64,000 bases of DNA from Candidatus Tepidiaquacellales bacterium OLB4/UTCHB1. GTDB taxonomy: Bacteria > Bacteroidota > Ignavibacteria > Tepidaquicellales > Tepidaquicellaceae. Shown in pieces: positions 7,763-43,498 of this stretch (the stretch's first letter is position 1; each line of letters begins with the position of its first letter). The stretch lies in NCBI GenBank assembly GCA_002050165.1, contig MWSW01000005.1, positions 62,001 to 126,000 on the forward strand. The letters are read 5' to 3'. A model generated the notes under the pieces. It made no database searches, was not told the origin of the DNA, and saw nothing but the letters and a program-made list of their open reading frames with translations. The translations under genes and the position numbers were made by a program.

Positions 7763-8839
7763 TTAAAGTGATTTGCCGTTGTGGTTTAATAAATTGAGCC
7801 TGCCCTTTACCTTTTGAATGACAACTTCAGGTAACGGTGCGTATCCTAAATTTTTTGCAAATATCGATCCTTCGGTTACTGCCCACAGAAGGAATGATTT
7901 CAGGATTCCGCCTTTCACGGGATCATCCTGATTTTCATAAACCATAATGTATGTATAACTTGAGATTGGATAAGTGTTATCGCCCCCGCTGTTTGTTATT
8001 GATTGCCCGAGATCATCAGGCATATCATTAACTGAATACTCAGCTGCTTTCATGAGTGATTCAATTGAAGGTGTAACGAATTGCCCGGCAGGATTCTGAA
8101 TATTTGCATAATTCAGATTATTCTGAACGGCGTAAACATATTCGACATAACCGATAGAATATTCAATTTGCTTTACTAAACCTGTAACGCCTTCATTGCC
8201 TTTTGCACCTTGACCAACCGGAAACCTTATACTTTGTCCGACTCCAACTTTTTCTCTCCAATCTGTTGACACCTTGCCGAGGAAATCGGTAAAGACGTAT
8301 GTCGTACCACTTCCGTCAGACCGGAAACAAACTACAATCTCTTTATCAGGGAAATTAACTCCCGGATTGGAATTTACTATTCCCGTGTCGTTCCATTTTT
8401 TTATGCTCCCGGAATAGATTCCAACCACCGCATTCTGTGTAAGGTTAATATTGTTTTGCAAACCCGGTAAATTGAAAGTTAAAACAACCGAACCGATAAC
8501 GGTTGGAAATTGGAGCAACCTTGTAGAGTACTTTGACATTATTTCATCTTGCTGGGGTTTTGAAAGCGGAATATCGGAAGCGCCAAAGTCAACGGTCTTT
8601 TCCGTAACCTGCCTTATACCGCCACCGCTACCGATTGACTGATAATTGATTTTTGCTTTCGGGTTGACTTTTTGAAATTCATGAACCCACTTCGAATAAA
8701 CCGGAAACGGAAATGTTGCACCAGCACCGTTTATCTGCTCGCTCCCCTTTTTTAATAAAGGATTTCCGGATTTTCGGGAGCAGGATAATAAAATAACCGA
8801 GAATAGAATAACTGCTACTACTGACAGGGTTAATTTCAT
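7763..8839 (-). CDS. pstS: Periplasmic phosphate-binding lipoprotein
   Basis: About 358 residues from the ATG at 8839. A TTG at 8866 is less likely because a candidate -7 element ends only 3 bases upstream of it. A lipobox (ILLSC) anchors the protein, as is usual in this lineage. PstS motifs are clear: INGAGATFPFPVY, INYQSIGSGGG and FRSDGSGTTYVFTDFL, which line the phosphate pocket. It is the first gene of pstSCAB. Phosphate-dependent control is expected from the family, but no Pho box was identified. Confidence 0.95.
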   Translation of the reverse strand: MKLTLSVVAVILFSVILLSCSRKSGNPLLKKGSEQINGAGATFPFPVYSKWVHEFQKVNPKAKINYQSIGSGGGIRQVTEKTVDFGASDIPLSKPQQDEIMSKYSTRLLQFPTVIGSVVLTFNLPGLQNNINLTQNAVVGIYSGSIKKWNDTGIVNSNPGVNFPDKEIVVCFRSDGSGTTYVFTDFLGKVSTDWREKVGVGQSIRFPVGQGAKGNEGVTGLVKQIEYSIGYVEYVYAVQNNLNYANIQNPAGQFVTPSIESLMKAAEYSVNDMPDDLGQSITNSGGDNTYPISSYTYIMVYENQDDPVKGGILKSFLLWAVTEGSIFAKNLGYAPLPEVVIQKVKGRLNLLNHNGKSL

Positions 8840-33625: not shown

Positions 33626-34768
33626 TTGAACATTCAAAAAATTAAAAACAGTGCGCTTCATCTGATATTGATATTTTTATTCATGATAACAGTAATACCT
33701 GATATTTCAGCACAGAATACCAATGCAGTTTCAACCGGTGTTCCATTTCTATTAATCGGGCCAAACTCAAGGTTTTCCGGCATGGGAGAATCCGGAGCCG
33801 GTATTGCAGATGATGCAACTGCCATGCACTGGAATCCCGCCGGTCTATCATTTCAAACCGACAGTGATTTGGAGATTAACTTCACTCACTCTCCATGGTT
33901 AGCTGGTCTTGGTATCGGAGATCTGTTTTATGATTTTGTTGCTTCAAAGAAATATGTACCGGAACTTAACGGTACGTTAGGAGCAAGTCTTACCTACCTG
34001 AATATCGGTGAGATTATTTATACTGACGAACTTGGTAACACTGACCCTTCAAGAAACTACAAGGCGTACGAACTTGCTTTTGCTGTCGGGTACGGAACAA
34101 AGTTATCAAATGACTGGGGAGTCGGAGTTACCACAAGATTTATATACAGCAGACTTTCTCCGGGTGACCTTCAGGTTGGAAATGAACGCGGAACTGGTAC
34201 AGCATTTACAACGAGTTTTGATTTATCTGGAATGTGGCGACCATCAGGCGGACCGAAATTTTTAAAAGATAAATTGTCAATCGGTTTGAACTTATCAAAT
34301 CTCGGTCCAAAGATCTCTTATGTTGACGCTGATCAGGCCGATCCTATACCAACTAATCTTAGGCTCGGGATTGCATATCAGATATTAAAAAATGAAGGTA
34401 ATGAGATCACCTTGGCAGCTGACTTTTCAAAGTTGTTAGTTAACAGATTTACCGACGAAAACGGCAATCCGGCATCCGATCCCTTTTATGAGGCGTTGTT
34501 TACTTCCTGGAAGGGTGGTATAAACGGCATCGGAAAAACTATCCAGTCTTCAATCGGAGTTGAATATTGGTACGGTGCTCCGAGGCTGATTGCACTCAGA
34601 GCCGGCTTCTTTTACGAAGACCCCTCGAACGGTAACAGGCGGTTCATTACCCTTGGCGCAGGTATTAGATATAGCAAATATGGCTTCGATTTCAGCTATA
34701 TTGATGCGCTCGTTGATAATCACCCACTCGCCAATACTCTCAGGTTTGGCTTGATTGCAAATTTCTAA
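33626..34768 (+). CDS. porV: T9SS outer-membrane shuttle protein PorV
   Basis: A 380-residue FadL-like barrel. The start is TTG with GGAGGA 6 bases upstream. A signal peptide ends near PDISAQ. The N-terminus FLLIGPNSRFSGMGESGAGIADDATAMHWNPAGLSF is typical of PorV/LptO, and the last strand ends LRFGLIANF with a C-terminal Phe. PorV carries cargo from the translocon to PorU. Adjacency to porU supports the call. Confidence 0.92.
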   Translation: MNIQKIKNSALHLILIFLFMITVIPDISAQNTNAVSTGVPFLLIGPNSRFSGMGESGAGIADDATAMHWNPAGLSFQTDSDLEINFTHSPWLAGLGIGDLFYDFVASKKYVPELNGTLGASLTYLNIGEIIYTDELGNTDPSRNYKAYELAFAVGYGTKLSNDWGVGVTTRFIYSRLSPGDLQVGNERGTGTAFTTSFDLSGMWRPSGGPKFLKDKLSIGLNLSNLGPKISYVDADQADPIPTNLRLGIAYQILKNEGNEITLAADFSKLLVNRFTDENGNPASDPFYEALFTSWKGGINGIGKTIQSSIGVEYWYGAPRLIALRAGFFYEDPSNGNRRFITLGAGIRYSKYGFDFSYIDALVDNHPLANTLRFGLIANF

Positions 34769-34774
34769 TTTTCC

Positions 34775-34798
34775 GGGGGAGCTGGTCTCCCCCTTTTT
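34775..34798 (+). terminator. Rho-independent terminator after porV
   Basis: A perfect 7-bp G/C-rich stem, GGGGGAG (34775-34781) with CTCCCCC (34787-34793), loop CTGGT, then five T. It lies just after the porV stop and before the M6-like gene, so that gene would need read-through or its own promoter. Confidence 0.85.
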
Positions 34799-34814
34799 CA
34801 TAATCAATCCCTTT

Positions 34815-37800
34815 ATGTTCAGAAATAAATTCTTCCTTGTCATTTTCCTTTATGCTTTCCTATCTCATTCAGTTAAGGCTCAGGAATTAAAAAATTTACA
34901 ATTTGAATTATCACATCCGCTAAAATTCGGTAACGAAAATTCATATTTAACACCACGCTTCGATGTATCGCAAACTGATTCGATTAATGTAGTGGCAATT
35001 CTAGTACAGTTTCAGGAAGACGATAATTCATTCACAACCGGTAACGGAAAATTTGACCTGTCAGATAAATATTATAATGCAACGTTGCAACGCGATACTG
35101 TAATTGACTCCCCGCCTTACGATAGCGCTTACTTTGCGGACCATTTGAAATTTTTAATCAATTATTGGGATAAAGCGTCTGACGGAAAACTAAAGGTGAA
35201 ATTTGATTTACTCGGACAAGTGATTACGCTTCCCAAAAAAATGGAGGAATACTCACCACGGGATAATGAACCTGATTTCAGACGGCTCGGTGATCTCTTT
35301 ACAGATGCATGGACGATCGCTGAACATCAAATTGACTTTTCGCAATACGACCAAAGCAAGACTGCATTCGTCATTTTTCATGCCGGAACGGGTAGAGATG
35401 TTGACCTTAAGTCTGTTCTTGGTTTCGATCCTACTCCGTTTGATTTACCGAGTGTTTATCTTGGGTTGAAAAATTTAAAAGAATTTTATGGAAATACCTA
35501 CGATGGTTATGTCACCAATAGTGGTTTTAAAATTCAAAACTCAATGGTAATTCCATCAAATGAGTTACGTGAACTTGATTTGATAAGTGGTAAATATTTA
35601 TTACGCCTTGGAATAAACGGAATACTCGTCGCAACATTCGGGAGTTACCTTGGATTGCCCGATTTGTTCAATACTCAGACAGGTCGAACTGCAATCGGCA
35701 GATTTGGTTTAATGGATGGCCAATCAATATTTAGTTATAACGGTATATTCCCGCCTGAGCCCTCTGCATGGGAAAAGGTTTATCTCGGATTTAAAGAACC
35801 GATTGTTATTAGTTCAGGTAACCAGTTGTTGAATATCAAAGAATCTTCAACGGGAAACTTCACAGATTCAACTATATTCAAAGTGCTTATCAGCAGTCGG
35901 GAATATTTTTTAATTGAAAATCGCAACCGTGATCCTTATCACAATGGACTTAAAATTTATACCCGTAACCGTTCTTTTAACGATTCAAATGTTTACACTC
36001 AGGATATTTCAGGCTTTGAAAGTTTCAACATTGATAAGATCCGGGGCAATGTTACTGATGTTTCAAATCCTGATTGGTCACTGCCGGGATTAATTAACGA
36101 TACTGCAAACTTCAGAGGTGGAATCCTTATTTGGCATATAGATGAAAATGTGATAGATGAAAATATCTCCAGTAACTCTATTAACAATAACATCAAAAGA
36201 AGAGGCGTATCACTTGAAGAAGCAAAAGGATCTCAAACTATCGGTGTTACCTTCAGTACGCCTTTCGGTGATATTACCGGTGACGGTACGATTTACGATT
36301 ATTGGTTTAAAGGTTACCACGGAGTTCCCGAAACTATATATAAAAATGAATTCACACCTTCTTCAATTCCGAATTCGCTTTCATATTCTCTTGCAAATAA
36401 TTTCATTTATGTAACGGAATTCGATACAATATCACCTTCGATGAATTTCAGAGTGAAAATTGGTTCTGATATAATAAGTCCACTTGCAGGTTTTCCAATT
36501 AGGCTTCCTGTTGACACAACAGGAAATTCACAAGTAATTGCATTCGATTTCATGAATGTTTCGGGCGATCAAATTTTTGCAAATTCGAATAATAACGTTT
36601 ATGGATTCAATCTTAATGGCTCAAGTATTGGTGGAACTGCTGTACTTATTCCTAAGGCAGGTAAATTTATACCGTCAACATTGCGTGGTGAATCTGTAAA
36701 CACTTTATTTGCACTTAGTGACTCTGAATTAAAATCATACAACAGCAACGGTATCTCGAATTCCAGAATATTAAATAGCGGAACAGTATCCGCGCCTTCG
36801 TTAGTAATACAGAATAGAGGAGCTGTCTATCTTGGTTTCAACACCGGTGTGATAAATAGTTACGATCAAAACCTAACCGAAGTTAGGGTTGATTCCATTC
36901 AGGGTTCTGTAATTGCTTTCTCTCAAAATGTAACAGATTCATTTTCGGTTATTAACGGCAATTTTAAATATTTGGTTACGGGAAATATTTCAACTGCTAC
37001 TTCTCAGGATATTCTGACAACGGATTTAAATAACAGATTAATCTTAAACGGTAATCAAATTAAAATATCTTACAACTATTCCGCTATAAATTCATCGCCT
37101 GTACTTGCAGATTTGAACAGGGACGGACGACAAGAAATAATTTTTGTTGCTGACAGTACAATTTTTGCAATTAACTCTAACGGTGTTCTGGTTGATAACT
37201 TCCCTATCAACTTTGACCGGAATATTTCATCCGGAATAAGTGTGGCCGATATAAATGACGATGGTATCTCCGAGTTACTTTTTGTAACATCAGACGGCAA
37301 TCTTTACGCTTACGGTGTAAACGGGAAAATATTAAATGGATTTCCACTGCTTGTTTCCTCTAAAACAATTTCTACTCCTGCAATATTAAATGCAGATGGA
37401 TACTTTGGTCTGGCCGTTTTGGGTAACGATGGATTTCTTTACGCCTTCAGAACTAATCATCAATACAAACCTGAAAATGTGTATTGGAAAAATTATCTGG
37501 GTAACGAATCATTATCCAATCATAATTACACAGGAAATGCACATTCACCCGGCTTTACGAGTAAATTACCTGAATCTAAGGTATATAATTGGCCAAATCC
37601 GGTTTATGATGGAAAAACTTATATTCGGTATTTCATTAATGGAATTGCCTCTGACGTGAAAATAAAAATCCTTGACCTCTCCGGTGAACTTGTAACAGAA
37701 CTTAACGGACCGGCATTTTCCAATTCAGAAAACGAGATCCTCTGGGATGCAGGCAATGTTCAGAGTGGCGTGTACTATGGCGTGATAACTGCAAATATTG

Positions 37801-37847
37801 ATGGTTCCGAAGTAACGAGAATTATTAAAATTGCTGTTGTAAAATAA
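34815..37847 (+). CDS. M6-like secreted protein with degenerate zinc motif, FG-GAP repeats and T9SS-like tail
   Basis: About 1010 residues from the ATG at 34815. The signal ends near SVKAQ. The M6 (immune inhibitor A-like) domain spans ~45-400, with FVIFHAGTGRD and GLMDG...SAWEKVYLGF landmarks. At the zinc site, where M6 enzymes have HEFGH before YLGLPDL, this protein has ATFGS (residues ~273-277), so both His and the Glu are lost. Later repeats resemble FG-GAP/VCBS blades (ADLNRDGRQEIIFVAD, ADINDDGISELLFVTSDG). The last ~85 residues form a T9SS-like sorting domain (YNWPNPVYDGKTYIRYF). It is probably surface-exposed and non-proteolytic. Confidence 0.82.
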   Translation: MFRNKFFLVIFLYAFLSHSVKAQELKNLQFELSHPLKFGNENSYLTPRFDVSQTDSINVVAILVQFQEDDNSFTTGNGKFDLSDKYYNATLQRDTVIDSPPYDSAYFADHLKFLINYWDKASDGKLKVKFDLLGQVITLPKKMEEYSPRDNEPDFRRLGDLFTDAWTIAEHQIDFSQYDQSKTAFVIFHAGTGRDVDLKSVLGFDPTPFDLPSVYLGLKNLKEFYGNTYDGYVTNSGFKIQNSMVIPSNELRELDLISGKYLLRLGINGILVATFGSYLGLPDLFNTQTGRTAIGRFGLMDGQSIFSYNGIFPPEPSAWEKVYLGFKEPIVISSGNQLLNIKESSTGNFTDSTIFKVLISSREYFLIENRNRDPYHNGLKIYTRNRSFNDSNVYTQDISGFESFNIDKIRGNVTDVSNPDWSLPGLINDTANFRGGILIWHIDENVIDENISSNSINNNIKRRGVSLEEAKGSQTIGVTFSTPFGDITGDGTIYDYWFKGYHGVPETIYKNEFTPSSIPNSLSYSLANNFIYVTEFDTISPSMNFRVKIGSDIISPLAGFPIRLPVDTTGNSQVIAFDFMNVSGDQIFANSNNNVYGFNLNGSSIGGTAVLIPKAGKFIPSTLRGESVNTLFALSDSELKSYNSNGISNSRILNSGTVSAPSLVIQNRGAVYLGFNTGVINSYDQNLTEVRVDSIQGSVIAFSQNVTDSFSVINGNFKYLVTGNISTATSQDILTTDLNNRLILNGNQIKISYNYSAINSSPVLADLNRDGRQEIIFVADSTIFAINSNGVLVDNFPINFDRNISSGISVADINDDGISELLFVTSDGNLYAYGVNGKILNGFPLLVSSKTISTPAILNADGYFGLAVLGNDGFLYAFRTNHQYKPENVYWKNYLGNESLSNHNYTGNAHSPGFTSKLPESKVYNWPNPVYDGKTYIRYFINGIASDVKIKILDLSGELVTELNGPAFSNSENEILWDAGNVQSGVYYGVITANIDGSEVTRIIKIAVVK

Positions 37848-37906: not shown

Positions 37907-39007
37907 ATGGAAATATTCATTTCAGTATTTTTTATAACTTACCTCGCACTCCATCTTTACTTTCTAAAAGGATTGCGAATTTCAACTACATTAGAAAAAT
38001 TTTCATTAAAGAATCCTCCCTCAGTCAGCCTGATTGTAGCTGCAAAAAATGAAAAGGATGTAATTGCAAGATGTATTCAATCGCTGAAAGAAATTAAATA
38101 TGAAGGTACACTCGAAATCATACTCGTAAATGATAAATCTGACGATAACACAAAGGAGATTATGATTAAAGAATCTCAGGGTGATAGCCGAATAAAAGTA
38201 ATAGACTCTAACCGTACCGAAACATCAAACTTGAAAGGAAAGGCGAACGCACTTGATACTGCAATCAGACTCTGCCGTGGCGAGATAGTCATAACAACTG
38301 ACGCTGATTGTACGGTTCAAAGCGAATGGGTGAAATCTATGTCATCTTACTATGATACTTCAACTGCAATGGTTAACGGGTTCACAACAATCGATACAAA
38401 TCAAAAGTTGTTCGATAAACTTCAGGCTTTGGATTTTATTTATTTGCTTTCACTGGCATCATCGAGTTGTGGGATCGGGCGAATTCTTAGTTGTATCGGA
38501 AATAATATTTCATTTCGAAAAGATATCTACATGCAACTCGGCGGTTTCGAAAAAATCGGATTCTCAGTTACAGAAGACCTCGCATTAATGAGGGCTATTG
38601 ACTCAATTAAAAATGTTAAGATAAAATTCCCTACAGATGATAGAAATGTGGTAACTTCACAACCCTGCGCGGATTTGCGAGCTCTTTTCAATCAGAAAAA
38701 ACGCTGGTTCAGAGGTGGATTGGGAATCAGACCATTTGGATATATTACCGGGATTGAATTGTATATCGCAAATCTTTATTTACTCACAGGAATTTTCTTC
38801 ACACCTCCCGCATTCTATTTCACAATGGTTGGAATAAAGTTTGTCTCCGAATTGATTCTTCTAATACCGCTTTTGAAAATATATAAAAGTACCGGATTGT
38901 TGAAATATTTTATTCACTTCCAAATTTATTTCGCTTTATATGGACTTTTACTGCCGTTTACGTTTGTTTTAGGGAATAAAATTAAATGGAAGGGACGGAA
39001 ATATTAA
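37907..39007 (+). CDS. Family 2 membrane glycosyltransferase
   Basis: A 366-residue processive-type GT2. One N-terminal and about three C-terminal membrane segments flank a GT-A domain with LIVAAKNEKDVIARCI, VNDKSDDNT, the metal motif TDADC and the acceptor motif QKKRW. Such proteins use nucleotide sugars to make glycolipids or polysaccharide. The substrate is unknown. Its stop overlaps the stop of the convergent gene at 39004 by 4 bases. Confidence 0.88.
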   Translation: MEIFISVFFITYLALHLYFLKGLRISTTLEKFSLKNPPSVSLIVAAKNEKDVIARCIQSLKEIKYEGTLEIILVNDKSDDNTKEIMIKESQGDSRIKVIDSNRTETSNLKGKANALDTAIRLCRGEIVITTDADCTVQSEWVKSMSSYYDTSTAMVNGFTTIDTNQKLFDKLQALDFIYLLSLASSSCGIGRILSCIGNNISFRKDIYMQLGGFEKIGFSVTEDLALMRAIDSIKNVKIKFPTDDRNVVTSQPCADLRALFNQKKRWFRGGLGIRPFGYITGIELYIANLYLLTGIFFTPPAFYFTMVGIKFVSELILLIPLLKIYKSTGLLKYFIHFQIYFALYGLLLPFTFVLGNKIKWKGRKY

Positions 39008-39654
39008 AATTTTATAAGTGGAAAATGAAATCTTGTATTTATATTGATTGATGAATATTCTCCGGCGTAGGTATATTTTCCAACAATATCGAAAATGAAA
39101 ATTGTAAACCCTAAACCTGCTGAGACTCCTATTTTGCTATCTGAAAGCAACATATCCGGATTATTCTCAGCAGGTGTGACAACTCGTTTAATGCTTAGCT
39201 GTCCGACTTCAAGTGATGCGACAGGCATTGTGAAATAATTTGGTAACAGCTGTGTAAGTAAAACATCAACGCTACCACCAAATTGTGTTATAGTTGTCTC
39301 GAATACTTCAATCCGATTTGTCGCTTTGAACTCTTCAGCGCCTGAATGTTTTTGATATTGGAAGTATCCGCCGATAAAGAAAGGGAAAAGATCAGATGAA
39401 GCAAATTCTATTTTTCCTCCAAATGTAAATGCTGCACGGGAATTCTTACCAAAGTCCTGAATTGGAAATGAAATTCCTATATTTGGTGAAATGAATAATC
39501 CTGAAATTGAGTAAGGCTTTTGACTCTCATGTTTTAAAATATGTTCACTCGCTAACCTTTTATCACTTAATAAATATCCTTCATTAACGGTTTCCTGAGC
39601 AGTCAAAGATACTGCAATAGACATCATGAATATAAAGACAATGCAGAATTTCAC
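39004..39654 (-). CDS. Predicted outer-membrane barrel protein
   Basis: A 216-residue protein with a GTG start and a signal peptide ending near VSLTAQ. The C-terminal ~160 residues alternate in barrel fashion (SGLFISPNIGISFPI, AFTFGGKIEFASSDLFPFFIGGYFQY) and end NINTRFHFPLIKF. No named family is recognised. It starts 3 bases after the DUF2520 gene and is last in the prmC-dtd-DUF2520 operon. Confidence 0.6.
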   Translation of the reverse strand: MKFCIVFIFMMSIAVSLTAQETVNEGYLLSDKRLASEHILKHESQKPYSISGLFISPNIGISFPIQDFGKNSRAAFTFGGKIEFASSDLFPFFIGGYFQYQKHSGAEEFKATNRIEVFETTITQFGGSVDVLLTQLLPNYFTMPVASLEVGQLSIKRVVTPAENNPDMLLSDSKIGVSAGLGFTIFIFDIVGKYTYAGEYSSININTRFHFPLIKF

Positions 39655-39657
39655 GCC

Positions 39658-40521
39658 TTAATAAGATAGAAGTTTGATAAAACTATTGTATTTATCTTTA
39701 TCCATTTTTCCGTTTCTGTATGCAATCTCAACAGCTCTTTTGCTGATTGTCTTATAAAATAATTGAAGATCATTATTGTTGTCAATAGAACTTAGATGAG
39801 CTTTCAAAGTTTTAATATCGTTTCTTACAATCGGTCCAGTAAGGGATTTATCTACACCGTATGTGTAAACATTATTCAACGTTTTCGAAATTATCGGTGA
39901 AAACACCTTTGAAACATCTGTAATATTTTTATTAACTGTTTTCATTATATCGTTAATGATATCAATATAACATACTAAAAAGTTTGATGCTATAACACTT
40001 GCAAGATGGTATAATGGCTTTTTGTCAATCGGTATATTTAGGGTAACCGAATTAAACTTCAATGCAATTTCCCTCATCAGTTTAATACATTTTTTACCAC
40101 CTTCGATTCCAATCGTAATTCCTTCAAAGAGGTGATTATTTTTGTATGTAATTTTATTGAAAGTTTGAATCGGGTGAAACGAGCCACTGTTTGAAGATGG
40201 CAGAATCCCTTTAAATACTTCTGATGAGACACTTCCGGATGTATGGAATATGGTTCTTCCTCGCAAACTGTTCTTCATCTCCTTAAGGGAATTACAAACA
40301 ACTCCTAACTGCCCGTCTTTTACACATATTATTATTGTTTCAGAACCGTCACCGGCTACAGAATTAATATTCACGGAATAATCGCATCCAACTCTCCCTG
40401 ACAATTTCTTCAAAATTGATAAATCTTTTCCTACGACATTTACAATCTGAAAACCTGTTTCATGAAGTGAAAATAAAAGTGAAGACCCAACATTACCAAT
40501 ACCGACGATTGTAACTTTCAT
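39658..40521 (-). CDS. Rossmann-fold DUF2520 protein
   Basis: A 287-residue protein. The N-terminal NAD(P)-binding fold begins VTIVGIGNVGSSL. The DUF2520 C-terminal helical domain starts near residue 140 (GSFHPIQTF and HLASVIASNFLVCYID motifs). The architecture resembles pyrroline-5-carboxylate reductase or prephenate dehydrogenase relatives, but the reaction is unknown. The ATG directly follows the TAA of dtd. Confidence 0.85.
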   Translation of the reverse strand: MKVTIVGIGNVGSSLLFSLHETGFQIVNVVGKDLSILKKLSGRVGCDYSVNINSVAGDGSETIIICVKDGQLGVVCNSLKEMKNSLRGRTIFHTSGSVSSEVFKGILPSSNSGSFHPIQTFNKITYKNNHLFEGITIGIEGGKKCIKLMREIALKFNSVTLNIPIDKKPLYHLASVIASNFLVCYIDIINDIMKTVNKNITDVSKVFSPIISKTLNNVYTYGVDKSLTGPIVRNDIKTLKAHLSSIDNNNDLQLFYKTISKRAVEIAYRNGKMDKDKYNSFIKLLSY

Positions 40522-40968
40522 TTATCTCTCCAAAATAATTGTTACCGGTCCGTCATTTGTTAAGTTCACTTTCATTTCAGCCGCAAATACTCCGGTTTGA
40601 ATTTTTGAACTATCGTAATATTCTGTTGCATAATTTACTAAATGTTCGTAAATCTTTTTAGCCTTTTGAGGCTCCTCGGCATTAATAAAACTCGGGCGGT
40701 TACCACTTTTATTGTTATCCGCACATAAAGTGAATTGTGATACAAATAAAATACTTCCTCTGATATCGGATAAACTTAAATTCATTTTGCCATTTGCATC
40801 ATCAAAAATGCGAAGATCAATTATCTTTCTGCACATCAGCTCTGCTATTGAAAAGTTATCACCTTTGGCAACACCGATGAAAACAAGTAACCCGTTATCT
40901 ATTGAAGCGACATTTTCATTCTTAACTTTTATATCAGCGTTTAATACTCTTTGAATAACAGCCTTCAT
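40522..40968 (-). CDS. dtd: D-aminoacyl-tRNA deacylase
   Basis: A 148-residue protein with all DTD marks: start MKAVIQRVLNADIKV, active-site FVSQFTLCAD and the C-terminal gly-cis-Pro motif NDGPVTIILE. It removes D-amino acids and glycine mischarged on tRNA. It overlaps prmC by 4 bases. Confidence 0.95.
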   Translation of the reverse strand: MKAVIQRVLNADIKVKNENVASIDNGLLVFIGVAKGDNFSIAELMCRKIIDLRIFDDANGKMNLSLSDIRGSILFVSQFTLCADNNKSGNRPSFINAEEPQKAKKIYEHLVNYATEYYDSSKIQTGVFAAEMKVNLTNDGPVTIILER

Positions 40969-41825
40969 CCAATCTTCAATACCCTTTCAATTCCATTTAG
41001 ATCTTTATAAAAATAGTAATCCGTTAAACTATTTTCCTTCATCAGGTCTTCCAATTTTTCGGACAGGTCATACGCAATTTCAAAAATACACGAAAACTTG
41101 TATGTAGCTTCGGACAATATGTGAAGGAATTTTCTGTAAAATGTGAGACCATCGCTCTCGTCAGTAAGCGCAACCTTTGGCTCAAATCCGGAAATTGCTT
41201 TATCCAAAAGTTTGTAATCGGTTGCGTTTATATAAGGTGGATTTGAAATTAGGTAATTTATTTGATTGGATAGCTTATTCATTTTCAAAAAATCCCGTTC
41301 TACAATTGTGAGTTGGTCATCAGCGATATCATTTATTTTTTTATTCTGCTCCGCAGTTTCAATGGCTGATTTAGAAATTTCAAGAGAAACAATTTTATGT
41401 TTTACATTTAAGCGGGAAAGCTCTTTTGAAACAGCAATTGGAATGCAACCTGAACCAGTTCCGACTTCAAGAATCTTTACATCTGTTAACTGTTTGCTTT
41501 TTATATCGTCAATGAGAACTTCCACAAGACACTCTGTTTCAGGTCTGGGTATGAGAACACTCGGGTTTACAAGTATCCGACAGTCCATGAACTCTGTTTC
41601 ACCAAGAATGTATTGCAACGGTTCACCTTTCAATCTACGCCTCAGCATATTTCTAATAATATCCAGTTCACCCGCACTTAAAGGTTTTTCAAATTCGAGA
41701 TACAGTTTGACCCTGTCACAACTGAATATATGACATAACATTAACTCAACATTCAGCCTTGCGTCTTCAATCCCATTTCCCTTTAACACAGAAGTTGAAG
41801 AATTTAAAACTTCAAGTAATTTCAA
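40965..41825 (-). CDS. prmC: Release factor glutamine methyltransferase
   Basis: A 286-residue SAM-dependent enzyme. The helical N-terminal domain ends with GEPLQYILGETEF (~67-79) and LIPRPETE (91-98). SAM is bound at VGTGSGCI (121-128), and NPPY (195-198) is the catalytic motif. It methylates the GGQ glutamine of release factors. The start is TTG; the next Met at residue 29 would cut into the domain. Confidence 0.94.
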   Translation of the reverse strand: MKLLEVLNSSTSVLKGNGIEDARLNVELMLCHIFSCDRVKLYLEFEKPLSAGELDIIRNMLRRRLKGEPLQYILGETEFMDCRILVNPSVLIPRPETECLVEVLIDDIKSKQLTDVKILEVGTGSGCIPIAVSKELSRLNVKHKIVSLEISKSAIETAEQNKKINDIADDQLTIVERDFLKMNKLSNQINYLISNPPYINATDYKLLDKAISGFEPKVALTDESDGLTFYRKFLHILSEATYKFSCIFEIAYDLSEKLEDLMKENSLTDYYFYKDLNGIERVLKIG

Positions 41826-41839
41826 CCCAGATTAAAATT

Positions 41840-43498
41840 TTAATTCTCAAAAACAACTTCTCCACCCAAGATTGTCTTTTCAACCTTAACGCTCAAAAGC
41901 TTTTCAGGATCTGAAAATATATCCTCGCTCAACACAATCATATCAGCATATTTTCCCTTTTCAATCGTTCCGCGGTCTTCCTCTTGAAAACAGGAATACG
42001 TTGACCAGATTGTAAATGACCTTATTGCATCATCCAGTGACACTACCTGAGCAGTGTTTGGAACATTGAATTGATTTTCTCCAATAAATTTTCGCTGAGT
42101 TAGGTAGTAAATTTGAATGAACGGATTAATTTGGTGAAACGGAAAATCCGTTCCGGAAACAAACATTCCGCACGACTCTTTTATTGAACGCCAGTTTGCA
42201 ATTTTGTTTAAATATTCAGCGCCTATAAATTCGGAAACAATCTGCATATCACTCATTCCGATATCAGGTCTGACGGAAGGAATAAGTTTATGCTCCTTAA
42301 ATCGTTTGAGAATTTCTTCATCAGTAAATTCTATATGCTCGATTACTGTTCGACTTCCATCCATATTTAAGTCCCTGCTGACTTTATCAATTACATCAAG
42401 CACATTTTTAATTGCCTTATCCCCTACTGCTTTAACCCGAACCTGAAAGTTTTTTTCTAATGCGCGTTTAAAAACATTTTCAATTTCACCCTGGCCGTTA
42501 TATGGTTCCGGTGATGAAGTTTCATTCAAATATTTTCCTTCCATTATCGCCTGCTGAAATTCAAGACCGCCATCGTAATCGAGAGAAACAGAGCGGATTG
42601 TTAGCCTATCCTTGTAATTTTTCTCCATACCTTTTTCAAGATATTCCTCAAATGCCGGGTATCCCGCAGATAACACCGCATAAACTCTTATTGGAAGGAT
42701 GTTCGAATCAATCAACTCTTTGAACAAGTTAAGAGTACCCGTTCCGACTGTTCTGTCCTGAATACCCACAAAACCCCATTTGTTTAACTCCTTAACACCT
42801 TCAATTACAAACTTACGAATTTGATCATCCGTCAGTTCGGGAATTTTATTCCTGACAAGCTCAAGCGCCCCGTCAAAGAGCAATCCCGTTGGAGCCCCGT
42901 TTGAATCAAATTCAATAATTCCATTGTCAGGACTTTTCGTATCTCTGTTAATCCCAGCACTCTCAAGTAATTTTGAATTAACCCATACTGTATTTCCTGC
43001 AAGATTTATGAGATAGATATTGTGCTCTGTCGAAATTGAGTCAAGGAGTGTTTTGTTAATTTTTTGTAGTTCCTCTACAGGAATAACAAACTCGCTCCAT
43101 CCAAATCCAGCTATCCATGAACCGGGTGGGGAATCTTTTACTTTTTCACGAACTTGTTCAAGAATATCATCCAATGATTTCGCAGTAACCAGACTTATCA
43201 CATTAAGATTTTTTGAATATTCTACAATGGAACCTTCTGCATCAATGAAACCTGGTAAAACTACTTTACCGCTCAGGTCAATTTCATTAATACCGGAATA
43301 TTTTTCCCTGAGACCGGAAGTTGTTCCCGTTTCAAGTATTTTTCCATCTTTTACGGCAATTGCTTCCACTATCGTTCCCGCCGAATCCATAGTGTGAATC
43401 TTCCCGTTCACGAAAATTAAATCCGGATTACCCTTCGAACATGATTGCATTATCAGCATCGGAATAATGAGCAGTGTAAATAAAAAATAATGTTTCAA
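41840..43498 (-). CDS. Amidohydrolase-family (YtcJ-like) lipoprotein lacking most metal ligands
   Basis: A 552-residue protein with a TTG start and a lipobox (IMQSC, Cys 20). The YtcJ/amidohydrolase_3 fold is clear from VVLPGFIDA through SGTDFPFHQINPF to GTIEKGKYADMIVL. Expected ligands are replaced: the His-x-His after GFIDA is Glu88-Gly-Ser90, the usual GH is Gly168-Asn169, VHD is Ile246-Gln247-Asp248, the bridging Lys position is Ser305, and the His before A-I-G-D is Lys356. Only His388 (IEH) and Asp451 (GTDFP) remain. It is likely a non-hydrolytic envelope protein, or has a very different chemistry. Confidence 0.82.
   Translation of the reverse strand: MKHYFLFTLLIIPMLIMQSCSKGNPDLIFVNGKIHTMDSAGTIVEAIAVKDGKILETGTTSGLREKYSGINEIDLSGKVVLPGFIDAEGSIVEYSKNLNVISLVTAKSLDDILEQVREKVKDSPPGSWIAGFGWSEFVIPVEELQKINKTLLDSISTEHNIYLINLAGNTVWVNSKLLESAGINRDTKSPDNGIIEFDSNGAPTGLLFDGALELVRNKIPELTDDQIRKFVIEGVKELNKWGFVGIQDRTVGTGTLNLFKELIDSNILPIRVYAVLSAGYPAFEEYLEKGMEKNYKDRLTIRSVSLDYDGGLEFQQAIMEGKYLNETSSPEPYNGQGEIENVFKRALEKNFQVRVKAVGDKAIKNVLDVIDKVSRDLNMDGSRTVIEHIEFTDEEILKRFKEHKLIPSVRPDIGMSDMQIVSEFIGAEYLNKIANWRSIKESCGMFVSGTDFPFHQINPFIQIYYLTQRKFIGENQFNVPNTAQVVSLDDAIRSFTIWSTYSCFQEEDRGTIEKGKYADMIVLSEDIFSDPEKLLSVKVEKTILGGEVVFEN

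Follow-up and report, generated by a model that had tools for sequence, protein, structure and literature searches.

A membrane-anchored amidohydrolase-fold protein without its metal site, conserved throughout an order of Ignavibacteria, is probably a pseudoenzyme

A stretch of 64,000 nucleotides from Candidatus Tepidiaquacellales bacterium OLB4/UTCHB1 (the window; contig MWSW01000005.1, 62,001 to 126,000) encodes a protein that, with a probability of roughly three in four, is a pseudoenzyme: an envelope lipoprotein with a complete amidohydrolase fold that no longer binds its pair of catalytic metals. The fold is kept, the metal site is lost and the protein is under purifying selection, as in other pseudoenzymes of the amidohydrolase superfamily. 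Judged by its residues, it would lack both hallmarks of a catalytic, metal-dependent amidohydrolase, namely a complete six-residue metal site and the polarising histidine. The original prediction of a maintained pseudoenzyme in the envelope is supported by losses found across the order, dN/dS values of 0.02-0.07, an invariant lipobox cysteine and an intact predicted fold. As the protein has been kept intact by evolution although its metal residues are replaced, it probably performs a different, non-zinc task in the envelope.

The protein and its predicted fold

The gene and its anchoring residue are as follows; "clade" denotes the orthologues found in the order.

41840..43498, minus strand: coding sequence of the 552-aa amidohydrolase-fold lipoprotein without metal site; TTG start, uninterrupted reading frame
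43439..43441, minus strand: Cys20 of the lipobox, present in 40/40 clade members that have the N-terminus

The protein matches PF07969 (Amidohydro_3) with an E-value of 2.6e-71 and 241.9 bits, against a cut-off of 29.7, and covers the profile end to end (2-472 of 472). Together with the open frame and Cys20, this agrees with the claim that the gene is full length and its product lipidated. Among solved structures the best sequence match is 3icj (5e-27). The AF2 model (pLDDT 92.8, pTM 0.88) matches 3icj at 3.1e-39 in Foldseek, and VIA-align superimposes it on 3igh (Z 47.7, rmsd 3.7, 475 aligned) and on 3icj (Z 44.9, rmsd 3.6, 462 aligned), nearly as well as an intact relative, which has Z scores of 49.8 and 47.5 against the same two structures; the structure alignments comprised 31 sequences. 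The window protein is thus predicted to have the TIM-barrel plus β-sandwich fold of 3icj and 3igh, as expected of an Amidohydro_3/YtcJ homologue. No NCBIfam model scored above its cut-off for the protein, and a scan for promoters and terminators gave scores below the shuffle means. The same genome encodes one other full-length PF07969 protein (L002; G000:C19:19119-20513), in which all metal residues are intact and which, as its reading frame is listed, has no evident signal peptide at its start.

Residues at the former metal site

The only experimental definition of PF07969 metal residues that was found is that of the metal-dependent bile salt hydrolase BwBSH1. In that enzyme (PMC13081902), the metal residues are H110, H112, K373 (carboxylated), H441, H474 and D583, H196 is the catalytic polarising His, and alanine mutants at each of the six metal residues, as well as H196A, are inactive. 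By motif order, which is how the positions were mapped, the six metal residues would correspond to residues 88, 90, 305, 356, 388 and 451 of the window protein, and N169 fits H196, the polarising His, and not a metal ligand. The relevant positions were counted in 42 clade, 36 sister and 29 other rows. The named-scan clade members L071-L075, several of them evident duplicates of genomes already represented, were left out of these counts, and L161 was removed from the sister group beforehand and counted under "other".

43229..43237, minus strand: E88-G-S90, former HxH metal ligands; clade 88 = E31 D7 N2 and 90 = S26 N14, with two clade rows cut short there; sister H 36/36
42992..42994, minus strand: N169, former catalytic polarising His ("GH"); clade N22 S8 T5 D5 P1, with His in no clade row; sister H 36/36
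42584..42586, minus strand: S305, former bridging (carboxylated) Lys; clade S30 T8 C2 E1 G1; sister K 36/36
42578..42580, minus strand: D307, new acidic residue ending barrel strand 4; clade D29 E13 of 42; sister Y32 F3 S1
42431..42433, minus strand: K356, in place of the strand-5 metal His; K in 42/42 clade rows and in 0 non-clade rows
42335..42337, minus strand: H388, retained strand-6 ligand position, variable in the clade (Y28 H7 N3 S2 A1 G1)
42263..42331, minus strand: E390, R410 and D412, clade-specific charges after strands 6 and 7; E390 38/42, R410 38/42, D/E412 41/42
42146..42148, minus strand: D451, retained strand-8 ligand position; clade D31 N6 G3 E2

The window protein therefore has substitutions at four of its six metal positions (H to E88, H to S90, K to S305, H to K356). 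Every residue that the original prediction had named (E88-G-S90, G-N169, I-Q247-D, S305, K356, H388, D451) is present at its number, and its reading that only H388 and D451 persist holds for the window protein, which keeps 2/6 metal residues. Its count of five replaced ligand positions is inexact, since neither "GH" nor "VHD" is a metal ligand: four ligands have indeed been replaced, N169 stands at the catalytic His, and Q247 is at a position that does not define the site, varying among intact relatives (His in 33/36 sister and 8/29 other rows).

Misalignment hiding other ligands was considered and rejected on the basis of the ligand tables, the count of His columns and an independent profile alignment. 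In the profile built from the 36 intact sister proteins, all the named columns are aligned at the highest posterior class, and the family alignment places no other set of His, Asp or Lys residues at the site. A search of the 42 clade rows for a compensating His site gave a best column with His in 23/42; the proteins of the clade contain 1-7 His each versus 9-17 in the sisters. Of the 40 columns that are invariant in the clade, 38 are found in the intact relatives as well, the exceptions being Cys20 and Lys356. In the model, residues 305/307 end strand 4 (299-307) and 356 ends strand 5 (352-356), with 388/390 following strand 6 (385-387) and 410/412 following strand 7 (406-409). An intact relative, modelled likewise, has its metal residues at these same strand ends.

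Distribution in the order and the class

A first search found relatives in 58/59 genomes. At an E-value of 1e-80 or better, an orthologue is present in 41/44 genomes of the order, giving 42 orthologues, as one genome contributes a further, partial copy; the same substitutions, sought in these related genomes, are found order-wide, and 42/42 orthologues are defective. The metal site is kept in 0/42 clade rows versus 36/36 sister rows, a contrast that is more than chance. The idea that the change is private to this genome was rejected, the same losses occurring in relatives across the order. In the class, 73/391 genomes have a match at E 1e-80, of which 41 belong to the order and 32 do not, and 31/32 of the latter keep all six residues, by which a spread of the substitutions through the class was rejected as well. 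Among 395 genomes of the phylum no clade member was detected beyond the order at E 1e-90; the two matches outside the order at this threshold (G105 and G140) are both intact proteins. L071-L075 are named clade members, from MAGs labelled "Ignavibacteria/Ignavibacteriae/Bacteroidetes".

The three absences within the order probably reflect assembly gaps and not true losses. In G031 the contig begins inside prmC, the match to which starts at base 22 and is followed by dtd, the DUF2520 gene and the outer-membrane-like gene; in G037 no prmC was seen at all; and G041 is 75% complete, with a sole, weak prmC match.

Two further sequences stand apart. The exception among the 32 matches outside the order, L161 (G147:C36, family f8), has a separate, independent partial loss within an intact lineage (K to R, GH to GE, HAIGD to EAHGD, EH to EC), in which HxH and the last Asp remain. 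Genome G042 has a second, partial pseudoenzyme copy (L210/L070; G042:C237), behind which stand prmC, dtd, DUF2520 and the gene of the outer-membrane-like protein; that genome has 6% contamination, and the copy possibly comes from a mixed bin.

Origin and selection

The maximum-likelihood tree comprises 97 proteins and omits L041, L070, L080, L071-L075 and six near-identical rows from a single genus. In it the clade forms one branch (SH-aLRT 100, stem of 1.05 changes per site) nested among intact proteins of the same class, without one of these standing out as its exact sister, and none of the order's copies placed on the tree groups with the intact sister group. Among the 25 closest pairs, those with a computable dS have dN/dS of 0.019-0.066; the values are simple Nei-Gojobori estimates, and dS is saturated in more distant pairs. 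In 4/20 sister loci examined, a same-strand prmC-dtd pair begins 0.6-4 kb downstream of an intact relative, at about 0.6 kb (L203, G202), 1.9 kb (L197, G134), 2.6 kb (L200, G045) and 3.9 kb (L204, G055), the other 16 showing no such linkage. These four loci suggest that the site was probably lost in place. The simplest history, and a likely one with only 4/20 sister loci linked, is in-place loss in the ancestor of the order, as opposed to loss in a spare duplicate.

Gene neighbourhood

The putative pseudoenzyme gene heads a conserved run of genes, all on the minus strand; the plus-strand neighbour listed last lies outside the run.

40965..41825, minus strand: prmC, release-factor glutamine methyltransferase (TIGR03534, 5.2e-66); 14 nt from the pseudoenzyme gene; adjacent in 26/26 loci
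40522..40968, minus strand: dtd, D-aminoacyl-tRNA deacylase (TIGR00256, 1.2e-48); 4-nt overlap with prmC; 25/26 loci
39658..40521, minus strand: DUF2520/Rossmann protein (PF10728, 3.6e-28); 25/26 loci
39004..39654, minus strand: outer-membrane-like protein with a signal peptide and a C-terminal Phe; no Pfam or NCBIfam match; 25/26 loci
34755-37847, plus strand: NF052323, "T9SS-dependent M6-like inactivated metalloprotease" (NCBIfam, 4.5e-247)

The 26 loci come from distinct genomes, 17 of one family and 9 of the other, and the single locus without the full run ends at a contig edge, with part of its dtd visible. At one locus (L136, G004:C67, about 8471-8482) the prmC match is broken in two at about residues 121-126, which points to a frameshift or to faulty assembly. 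The outer-membrane-like protein is found in 42/44 genomes of the order and has distant homologues in families f10, f12, f22 and f26, where, in the 8 loci examined, its gene is not beside prmC, dtd or such an amidohydrolase. Obligate coupling of the pseudoenzyme to this protein was rejected for this reason, homologues being unlinked in families that have no pseudoenzyme.

Beyond the run lies a convergent unit encoding PorU, PorV, the inactivated M6 protein and a glycosyltransferase. The M6-like neighbour reads ATFGS where M6 proteases have HEFGH, and every aligned orthologue covering the motif also lacks it. Two conserved hydrolase folds with dead metal sites thus lie about 4 kb apart.

What the protein may do

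In the favoured explanation, the sequences show that in the common ancestor of the order a class-wide amidohydrolase lost its metal residues and gained the invariant Lys at the strand-5 metal His, an invariant Asp/Glu two residues past the lost bridging Lys, and the mostly conserved E390, R410 and D/E412. Since then the protein has stayed intact, with its lipobox Cys conserved, under purifying selection and within one conserved gene run. K356 and D/E307, with the neighbouring charges, may make up an ionic cluster on the floor of the pocket as a structural stand-in for the metals; a Lys-acid cluster of this kind is plausible from the strand positions on which its placement is based. The protein would then work by binding, either to a ligand or as a scaffold in the envelope, and the outer-membrane-like protein, whose gene closes the run, is a possible partner. 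The most likely mechanism is that of a non-catalytic, lipid-anchored barrel that acts by binding, for which CRMP-4 and the Pseudomonas pDHO chain, described below, are analogies. There are counter-points: prmC and dtd serve translation as housekeeping genes and do not point to an envelope function, the outer-membrane-like protein also occurs unlinked where the pseudoenzyme is absent, E390 and R410 are not invariant, and the persistence of D451 in 31/42 and of H388 in 7/42 leaves a small probability of a weak single-metal site in the window protein.

The boldest reading, which we consider doubtful, is that a periplasmic metal-dependent amidohydrolase of the ancestor was converted in place into a protein with a metal-free pocket built on the invariant Lys-acid pair, in which the Lys is functional, in covalent or acid-base chemistry or in the recognition of an anionic ligand, so that the active site would be re-purposed and not dead. 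That it is a metal-free enzyme, with new chemistry in the same barrel from a re-equipped pocket in which Lys356 serves as Schiff base or general base together with Asp/Glu307, is unlikely. Both residues are new and invariant in 42/42 while the rest of the pocket drifts, and selection is strongly purifying; nevertheless, other expected active-site positions vary (Y/H/N/S/A/G at 388, N/S/T/D/P at 169, D/N/G/E at 451), pairing a buried Lys with an acidic residue is also the simplest way to replace missing metals structurally, and there is no clue to a substrate or pathway. Metal-independent members of the LigI type have an invariant catalytic Asp at strand 8. A mechanism of this type was rejected, the strand-8 D451 being present in only 31/42 and so not invariant.

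It is quite improbable that the protein is still a metalloenzyme, holding an unusual or single metal through E88, D307, H388 and D451. In favour, H388 and D451 persist in the window protein, and its residues 88 and 307 are acidic. However, these two retained positions vary freely, which makes a residual metal site unlikely: both residues are kept in 7/42 clade rows (the window protein included, and the only rows with H388), D451 only in 24/42 and neither in 11/42. Moreover, the invariant Lys occupies a former ligand position, and no His column exceeds the 23/42 given above.

It is very improbable that the pseudoenzyme is an accessory of the type IX secretion locus next to it (PorU-PorV-inactivated M6) and not a partner in its own gene run. 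PorV and the inactivated M6 gene are about 4-8 kb away, and the M6 gene and the glycosyltransferase are present in 24/26 loci, in both families, but they belong to a separate, convergent transcription unit, and the M6 family is class-wide (above cut-off in 194/294 genomes) and hence does not track the pseudoenzyme. Decay of the gene, or a frameshift, assembly or annotation error, for which nothing speaks beyond the loss of catalytic residues, was rejected with near certainty by order-wide copies that are full-length in nearly all 41 genomes (a few are cut by contig ends), stand at the same locus and have low dN/dS.

Comparison with known relatives

With the YtcJ-like/PF07969 enzymes (3icj, 3igh and BwBSH1, PMC13081902) the window protein shares a full-length fold and profile match, and several intact sisters also have a signal or lipid anchor. 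Unlike these enzymes, it has 4/6 metal residues and the polarising His replaced, and has the clade-specific K356 and D/E307. The M6-like neighbour is alike in being a conserved envelope or secreted hydrolase fold from which the metal motif has been removed; it differs in its unrelated fold, in its class-wide distribution and in having already been named by NCBI.

Pseudoenzymes of the amidohydrolase superfamily are already known, and no described example from PF07969, from Ignavibacteria or from this order was found in the literature covered, in which few subscription papers were included. In a single-sequence phmmer search against PDB chains, neither a CRMP nor a pDHO was among the matches at E 0.001. 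CRMP-4 keeps two of six metal residues, has lost the bridging Lys, has a pocket and has no known dihydropyrimidinase activity (PMC4051505). The human, dihydropyrimidinase-like CRMPs are like the window protein as amidohydrolase folds, non-catalytic in CRMPs and probably so here, with 2/6 metal residues, no bridging Lys and the pocket kept, and differ as PF01979 proteins of the eukaryotic cytosol, the window protein being a PF07969 bacterial lipoprotein whose metal site has an invariant Lys. The pseudo-dihydroorotase (pDHO) chain of Pseudomonas (PMC7053772) is inactive, yet required for ATCase activity, and the same source describes a fungal pDHO domain without zinc ligands. The Pseudomonas chain is alike as a bacterial amidohydrolase-fold chain reported inactive and needed for the assembly of a partner. 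It differs in belonging to another subfamily, the window gene encoding a lipoprotein with no transcarbamoylase gene beside it.

For an entire order, the blanket annotation of PF07969 proteins as metal-dependent hydrolases is probably wrong. The clade with its sister families offers a before-and-after series for a metal centre that was dismantled and replaced. Metal-less amidohydrolase folds are known mainly as animal CRMPs and pseudo-dihydroorotases; the window clade is bacterial, membrane-anchored and spread through an order, and it apparently takes the position in the genome that intact enzymes still occupy in sister families.
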